Assembly (NCBI GenBank): GCA_016201275.1
Contig: JACQDB010000041.1
Span: 1 to 55,334, forward strand
DNA length: 55,334 nt
Reading direction: 5' to 3'
From: Acidobacteriota bacterium
GTDB taxonomy: Bacteria; Acidobacteriota; Blastocatellia; UBA7656
Positions 19,555 through 20,455 of the stretch are shown piece after piece; position 1 is the stretch's first letter, and each line of letters begins with the position of its first letter. A program made the translations under genes and the position numbers. A model generated the notes under the pieces. The model searched no databases and had not been told where the DNA came from. It saw only the letters and a list, made by a program, of their open reading frames with translations.

Positions 19555-19573
19555 GTTTTAAGAGAAAAGGAGT

Positions 19574-19738
19574 GAGGGAGATGGGGAGATGGGGAGAAAG
19601 GGAGAAAGGGAGAATTTGAATATCTCGAATTTTTTGTTATTCAAATTTTTCGCTATCTTGATGCCGTTGGTTTCATGCAAAAACGAGACAAACTTTATCC
19701 CCTGTCTCCCTGTCTCCCCGTCTCCCTATCTCCCTCAC
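19574..19738. repeat. G-run / C-run inverted low-complexity repeat
   Basis: At 19574-19611 five GGG/GGGG runs are separated by AGAT or AGAAA. At about 19699-19738 the complementary pattern (CCCCTGTCTCCC, CCCCGTCTCCC, CTATCTCCC) appears. The two arms can pair as a long hairpin, and the first could form a G-quadruplex. The second arm runs into the 3' end of the selenoprotein gene at 19735. The 87 bp between them are AT-rich. Confidence 0.7.
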
Positions 19739-20334
19739 TCGCCTTCCGGTTTTTGATAGTAGCCATGTGAAGCGATGCGTTTGCCGGACATTTCATAAGC
19801 AAAGGCCGGCATATCGGGTGTGCCCATCGCATCGTTCCAACGATTGTAGAAATTGAACAGGCTGCAAACCGTCACGGCATCGTAAATCGCTTCGTCCGAC
19901 CAGCCGAATTTTTTCAACTCATCTATGTCGCTTTGGCGGATTTGATTGGCCGCAGAGTTTACTTTTTCGAGAAAGGCGAACAACGCTTTTTCAGCATCCG
20001 CAAGGCGCGACGAACGAAAATCGTCCAGCACCTGGCGCACCAGTTCTTCATCTTCTAAGGTCGCCACAGCGCCCGCTGTGTGAGACCCTACTCAGAAGGG
20101 ACAGGCGTTTTGGCGCGAGGTGAAGGCGGCAATCAATTCGCGCATTCCGTGCGACAGCGGCGAAGGCCCGCGCATCGCCATATCGGTGAACTTCGATAGA
20201 TGCTCGGTCATCTCCGGTTTGAAAGCGAACAGATGCCAGATTTCCGGAACCGGTAAATCGTGCGCCTGCATCTGCGCGATTTTGTTATCGAAAGGGCCGT
20301 TGCTTTTTTTCTGCTGCACGTCTTTCAGAAACAT
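19735..20334 (-). CDS. Probable selenocysteine-containing AhpD/carboxymuconolactone-decarboxylase-like peroxidase
   Basis: The frame is interrupted by one TGA (20092-20094), which I read as selenocysteine 81. Before it, ELIAAFTSRQNACPF matches the AhpD/CMD active-site helix. After it the same frame continues VGSHTAGAV and on to the stop at 19735, giving 199 residues, the usual length of peroxidase-related enzymes. The family motif here is CPFC-VGSH, so the TGA falls exactly on the second cysteine of CxxC, making CxxU. A stem-loop of bacterial SECIS type starts a few bases after the TGA. KALFAFLEKVNSAANQI, SDEAIYDAVTVCSLFNFYNR and the C-terminal tail are family-typical. AAGGAG precedes the ATG. 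A frameshift is not needed; the only alternative is a nonsense mutation. Confidence 0.8.
20059..20087 (-). promoter_or_regulatory. Bacterial SECIS-like stem-loop
   Basis: On the mRNA, GGTC pairs with GACC and CACAGC pairs perfectly with GCTGTG, separated by a small internal loop (TCA/GC) and capped by the tetraloop GGGC. The apical loop starts 17 nt after the UGA and begins with G. Both points agree with the published bacterial SECIS model (16-37 nt spacing, a G within the first two loop positions). The hairpin is inside the coding sequence, as bacterial SelB requires. Confidence 0.72.
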
Positions 20335-20455
20335 CGGTAGCTGCTCCTTGTCGGTAGTCTTTGCGGTTACTTGGTGGCTTGGCGGCTTGGCGCGAACCGA
20401 ATTCTTTCACGCCGAGACGCCAAGGAGACGCAAAGAATTTCAGTTGAATAAAAAT

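Follow-up and report, generated by a model that had tools for sequence, protein, structure and literature searches.

A predicted AhpD-like selenoprotein gene interrupted by an in-frame UGA in an Acidobacteriota genome

A single UGA codon separates two short open reading frames in the genome of an Acidobacteriota bacterium, and the locus raises the question of whether these frames are the remains of a broken gene, two separate proteins, or one selenoprotein gene in which the UGA is read as selenocysteine (Sec). The whole stretch of DNA analysed, referred to here as the window, is 55,334 nucleotides long (contig JACQDB010000041.1, positions 1 to 55,334; contig C85 of our numbering) and belongs to an assembly of 6.84 Mb that is 98.7% complete. 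Under translation table 11, the minus-strand frame 20334..20092 encodes 80 residues and ends at a TGA, and a second minus-strand frame, 20067..19735, starts at GTG and encodes 110 residues. When the TGA (20094..20092) is read through as codon 81, the two join into one frame of 199 residues that begins with ATG, ends with a TGA terminator (19737..19735), and contains no other stop and no frameshift. The initial annotation had proposed this joining and had placed the gene correctly at 19735-20334, to which we add that it lies on the minus strand. A long frame split in this way counts for little on its own, since 16 TGAs in the window are flanked on both sides by open stretches of at least 75 codons. 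Features of the locus are listed in Table 1.

Table 1. Features of the AhpD-like locus, in window coordinates.
Feature	Position	Strand	Basis
AhpD-like coding sequence, 199 residues, with UGA as codon 81	19735..20334	-	Frame reading; TIGR01926 106.6 bits (cut-off 81.8); Pfam CMD 40.1 bits (cut-off 23)
AAGGAG, likely ribosome-binding site, 9 nt before the ATG	20344..20349	-	Read directly from the sequence
Glu66 codon, at the start of the motif E-x11-C-x-x-C-x3-H	20137..20139	-	Invariant in 17 and in 27 aligned sequences; spacing as for Glu118 of M. tuberculosis AhpD
Cys78 codon, paired with Sec81 in C-P-F-U	20101..20103	-	Invariant in 17 and in 27 aligned sequences
In-frame UGA, codon 81, predicted selenocysteine	20092..20094	-	TGA aligned in 10/10 near orthologues (window gene counted); Cys in the next 4 homologues
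His85 codon, at the end of the motif	20080..20082	-	Invariant in 17 and in 27 aligned sequences; spacing as for His137 of M. tuberculosis AhpD
Apical hairpin CACAGC-GGGC-GCTGTG	20065..20080	-	Arms 20080..20075 and 20070..20065, loop 20074..20071; 58/60 pairs in 10 Sec orthologues
Lower stem GGTC (20087..20084) / GACC (20062..20059)	20059..20087	-	Present, not conserved

Relatives of the gene were found at E <= 0.001 in 178 of the 396 genomes of the phylum that were searched. The eight nearest outside its own genome (47-75% identity) each carry one TGA, aligned with codon 81, as does an orthologue in a Gemmatimonadetes MAG (54% identity). The next four homologues (39-42% identity) have Cys in this column. 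Our alignment took in 71 loci (L022-L092), and 68 rows were used for the tests and the tree; L050 and L051, which duplicate L053 and L054, were left out together with L075. Column 81 holds TGA in 48 of the 68 distinct loci (window copy counted) and Cys in the other 20, with no third state, a ratio that is not a population frequency because the loci were picked rich in TGA copies (almost all of the 40 loci added to the comparison were chosen for showing one). In L075, for which a TGA and a TAG had been recorded, column 81 is Cys and the stops lie elsewhere. A second stop near the C-terminus in L054, L058 and L067 is taken as the alignment overrunning the gene end. A separate search for related loci yielded one, L052. 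Eight genomes were examined from the order of the source organism: the orthologue is present in G000 and G009 alone, three genomes gave no match and three contain distant relatives only. The genome that carries the window gene has three further weak A3 matches, two of them in one 459-codon frame and one partial; all three are stop-free, and no second AhpD-type Sec copy was detected there.

These alignments support the claim, first made from the window sequence alone, that the UGA replaces the second Cys of a family CxxC motif, since the aligned column holds Cys or UGA in the homologues. They also answer two questions posed with that claim: whether Cys or Sec stands at residue 81 in homologues, where across the 68 loci it is one or the other (Sec as UGA), and whether close relatives carry random stops elsewhere in the gene, of which the near orthologues have none. 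A chance nonsense mutation in a Cys-type AhpD gene, leaving a pseudogene, or a sequencing error is a reading that a single stop in a single gene always permits, and the window gene's own hairpin, discussed below, lies within chance. It is refuted by the TGA at the same codon in nine other near orthologues of 47-75% identity, and we consider it extremely improbable; the initial annotation had likewise judged a chance mutation unlikely. Substitution rates and the otherwise unbroken frame also stand against it. Comparison of the window gene with its orthologue in G009 gives a dN of 0.222 and a dS of 2.02 over codons 1-80, and a dN of 0.136 and a dS of 1.36 over codons 82-193. Six further pairs gave dN values of 0.23-0.39 before the UGA and 0.21-0.47 after it, with dS ranging from 0.81 to saturation. 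With dN well below dS on both sides of the UGA, the downstream part too is under protein selection.

The joined protein exceeds the cut-offs of both NCBIfam TIGR01926 (peroxid_rel) and the Pfam CMD domain. Among family matches at E up to 0.1, TIGR00777 (ahpD) is absent, and on this measure the protein is not of the M. tuberculosis AhpD type. The sequence CPF-U-VGSH is present as initially described and forms part of the motif E-x11-C-x-x-C(U)-x3-H, which comprises E66, C78, U81 and H85 and is invariant, with C or U at position 81, in both sets of aligned sequences. An AlphaFold model of the joined protein (mean pLDDT 94.9, pTM 0.92) consists of one confident domain that spans the UGA junction and has the all-helical AhpD-core fold. 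The best Foldseek matches in the PDB are the AhpD-core, peroxidase-related entries 2prr, 3c1l and 6k40 (E about 1e-8), and phmmer sequence matches fall in the same group. The model bears directly on the possibility that the locus encodes two proteins, one of 80 residues ending at the UGA and one of 110 residues starting from the GTG at 20067. Table 11 leaves both frames open, but the predicted domain runs across the junction, and Cys homologues are single uninterrupted proteins that align over both parts. The GTG lies inside the hairpin region, and starting there would lose the first residues after the UGA, His85 included. Two separate products are thus hardly credible.

Selenocysteine insertion depends on dedicated machinery, and the initial annotation had implied a working Sel system in this organism. 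Searching the genome found tRNA-Sec (66 bits against a gathering score of 47), selB (364 bits, cut-off 242), selA (539.6 bits, cut-off 268) and selD (356.5 bits, cut-off 125), so that all four exceed curated cut-offs and the selA/selB/selC/selD set is present. ARAGORN also calls a tRNA-SeC with anticodon tca in the same genome. The selD gene itself contains one in-frame TGA, in the context CAG-U-AAKL (L019 1501-2430, contig C76). Table 1 of a 2026 review lists the motif UxxK for Sec-type selenophosphate synthetase (PMC13188914), and this fit makes selD a second likely selenoprotein gene of the genome. A second TGA in the selD region examined lies upstream of the likely start, in added flanking DNA. 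Across the phylum, 252 of 396 genomes have selA at E <= 1e-60. Where a Sec copy was verified, 37 of 41 genomes have the gene, versus 1 of 17 with only Cys copies (Fisher p 9e-10), an association weakened because most Cys-only genomes belong to one family (f15). The cross-table counts as Cys-only those genomes whose copies, as fetched or listed, are all Cys, and it omits G129, the genome of L075. No selA was detected in four of the Sec-copy genomes: G140, which is 91% complete in about 650 contigs, and three others whose completeness is 72-75%.

A bacterial SECIS element is a hairpin that follows immediately after the UGA and carries a G at the first or second position of its apical loop. The initial annotation described such an element here, and its apical stem, its GGGC loop starting 17 nt after the UGA and the G first in that loop were all found; its lower stem is also present in the window gene (4/4 pairs) but is not conserved, with 0 to 2 pairs in the other nine orthologues. 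In an ungapped alignment of the ten orthologues, 96.7% of cells are paired in the apical helix and 40% in the lower one. A G occupies one of the first two loop positions in nine of the ten Sec orthologues, the exception being L026, whose loop is CACG.

We assessed these hairpins against synonymous recodings drawn from each gene's own codon usage, because the region codes for an Ala-rich stretch that readily forms pairs. Taken by itself, the window gene's hairpin is not significant, either at fixed geometry (6/6 pairs, p 0.24) or in a free search for the best hairpin (p 0.41 for energy, 0.36 for the stem), and Rfam at gathering scores gave no match in the window. Among the independent features invoked earlier, the window gene's own hairpin, being within chance, does not count as one. 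Across the ten Sec orthologues, 58 of 60 apical pairs form against 49.0 expected (sd 2.17), and 0 of 2000 recodings reached this count; the fixed-geometry test is not blind, because its register was taken from the window hairpin. The same positions pair at expectation in the four nearest Cys homologues (14/24 against 14.1) and in 20 Cys homologues (68/120 against 67.0). One pair, formed by two third codon positions (A-T, G-T, T-A or C-G), is made in all ten Sec genes and in none of the four near Cys genes. For covariation the score is 0.211; shuffled versions average 0.072 and none of 500 reaches the observed value, and slid versions do not exceed 0.111. Two other measures are not significant: 172 of 500 shuffles have at least as many pairs altered in both partners, and 93 of 500 at least as many further pair types.

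In free hairpin searches, z averaged -0.76 over the 10 close Sec genes, -1.28 over the 38 distant ones and +0.11 over the 20 Cys genes. A different hairpin, ACGGAGA/TCTCCGT-like, is present in about half of the distant Sec genes, and its loop also begins 17 nt after the UGA. In 37 distant Sec genes this triloop register, chosen after the free-search result had been seen, pairs in 203 of 259 cells, a count reached by none of 2000 recodings (153.2 expected); in the 20 Cys genes it pairs in 29 of 140 cells, with 25.5 expected. L053 belongs to the distant set of the free search and not to that of the fixed-geometry test. All seven pairs form in 18 of the 37 genes and six in 4; most of the 15 genes with five or fewer have a hairpin in another register, often with the loop 24 nt after the UGA. 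As related sequences are not independent, all of these hairpin statistics overstate certainty.

Pairing above expectation in the UGA genes and not in the Cys genes also bears on whether the UGA might be read through as another amino acid by near-cognate suppression. The inserted residue cannot be told from sequence, which leaves room for this reading. Against it, the position is UGA or Cys only in 68 loci, the genome has a complete Sec gene set, and the AhpD-like gene uses UGA as its own terminator. We rate suppression as very unlikely, if marginally less so than a pseudogene or two proteins.

Taken together, we consider with high confidence that the locus is a working selenoprotein gene, predicted from comparative sequence evidence to encode one 199-residue AhpD-like protein with Sec at residue 81 and a CxxU redox pair. 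In the proposed mechanism, SelB would bind the mRNA hairpin just after the UGA and bring Sec-tRNA-Sec, and the ribosome would insert selenocysteine at residue 81 to produce the all-helical protein. Cys78 and Sec81 would form the redox pair, and Glu66 and His85 would serve as proton-relay residues. By analogy, the selenol would replace a thiol most likely in the reduction of peroxide (or of a partner disulfide), since Sec81 stands at the position of Cys133 in M. tuberculosis AhpD. Sec insertion, peroxidase activity, substrate and reductant are all things that we infer. Ordinary annotation would call two fragments at this locus and so miss a predicted redox enzyme. The window gene leaves the understanding of how selenocysteine is coded unchanged; together with its relatives, it shows that AhpD-type predicted selenoproteins are frequent in the phylum. 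The literature consulted on the family yielded no measurement of its reaction.

The ten Sec orthologues found share a CPFU or CLFU motif; nine occur in six families of the window's phylum and one in the Gemmatimonadetes MAG. In the tree, which has a midpoint root only, they form one group with the four near Cys genes (support 98/99). The four Cys genes group together (98/89) inside a weak fork with three Sec genes (81/45), and with this support at the deciding fork the tree does not settle the order of the Sec/Cys change. Three of the four nearest Cys relatives are in genomes without detected selA. A joint reading of these data, to which we give slightly less than an even chance, is that the CPFU/CLFU orthologues make up a separate Sec subfamily of TIGR01926 that has a SECIS of its own, that the four nearest Cys relatives may descend from Sec ancestors, and that a second, unrelated-looking SECIS accompanies AhpD-type selenoproteins found widely across the phylum. 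If the near Cys relatives do have Sec ancestors, loss of the Sec machinery would have gone together with a change from Sec to Cys.

Numerous further AhpD-type genes in the phylum (L053-L091) have a UGA at the codon 81 column and different hairpins. Three Sec copies occur in G009 (L023, L089, L090) and two each in G008, G041, G286 and G371.

Flanking genes, with names read by eye, are common to the window gene and the G009 orthologue only; the other orthologues have different neighbours, and no operon link was therefore found. A 171-base palindromic element (window 19570-19740) lies between a kinase-like gene and the AhpD-like gene and overlaps the last bases of the latter. Its 41-nt arms are 90% complementary and are built of repeats of about 8 bases, GGGAGAxx. 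The same genome contains near-complete copies at C5 and C136 (92% and 91%) and a half copy at C144, and the arms match many other places, with 75 matches in all. The element looks like a MITE- or REP-type element. In G009, a different palindrome (L023 2090-2220) is located just after the end of the orthologue, with arms of tandem AGTAGGC-type 7-base repeats as judged by eye, so that, at the same site, these two related genomes have repeat-armed palindromes that are unlike each other. We also considered a stretch of 30 bases near 20408 as a dispersed repeat and rejected it, as it occurs once in the genome.

Among known systems, the closest is the AhpD-like selenoprotein family TIGR01926/COG2128, which the window gene resembles in its TIGR01926 score, its CxxU motif and the hairpin directly after the UGA. 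The family was first reported under COG2128 from the Sargasso Sea with 27 sequences (PMC1088965), and 'AhpD-like 1' in the GOS data has 299 (PMC2398784). Table 1 of the 2026 review lists the AhpD-like family with TIGR01926 and CxxU as predicted with high confidence (PMC13188914), and its representative accession is the one that a 2022 review gives under COG2128 (PMC9312934), which ties the two names together. For acidobacterial selenoproteins, a 2006 count gives three families and four proteins (PMC1794560), and a 2025 study gives three selenoproteins for an Acidobacteriota test genome (PMC12013277). Compared with the other TIGR01926 Sec genes sampled, which mostly have C-x-Y-U and other hairpins, the window's subgroup has CPFU or CLFU and a tetraloop SECIS in Ala codons; a search of titles and abstract openings in open PMC found no literature on this subgroup. 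The related (seleno)protein families NF041238 and NF053654 of NCBIfam are distant superfamily relatives, against which the window protein scores 41.8 and 14.9 bits, far below the cut-offs of 175 and 310.

The Cys-type AhpD-core proteins 2prr, 3c1l, 6k40, 2oyo and 2pfx match the window protein in sequence (E 2e-15 to 5e-13) and in fold (TM 0.73-0.77 by query), with C-x-x-C at the place of its CxxU in the three alignments inspected. They differ in having Cys rather than Sec and in sharing only 23-27% identity. M. tuberculosis AhpD, with its residues Glu118, Cys130, Cys133 and His137 (PMC3141380), has the same spacing, Glu-x11-Cys-x-x-Cys-x3-His, but is a poor whole-fold match to the window model (best E 0.27), and its His132 is replaced by Phe80. 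Gamma-carboxymuconolactone decarboxylase has only the broad Pfam CMD domain in common with the window protein, and its members are described in PMC3141380 as being without the C-x-x-C catalytic motif, unlike the window protein with its CxxU. The window gene is thus an additional member of an already described predicted selenoprotein family, and its kind is not new.
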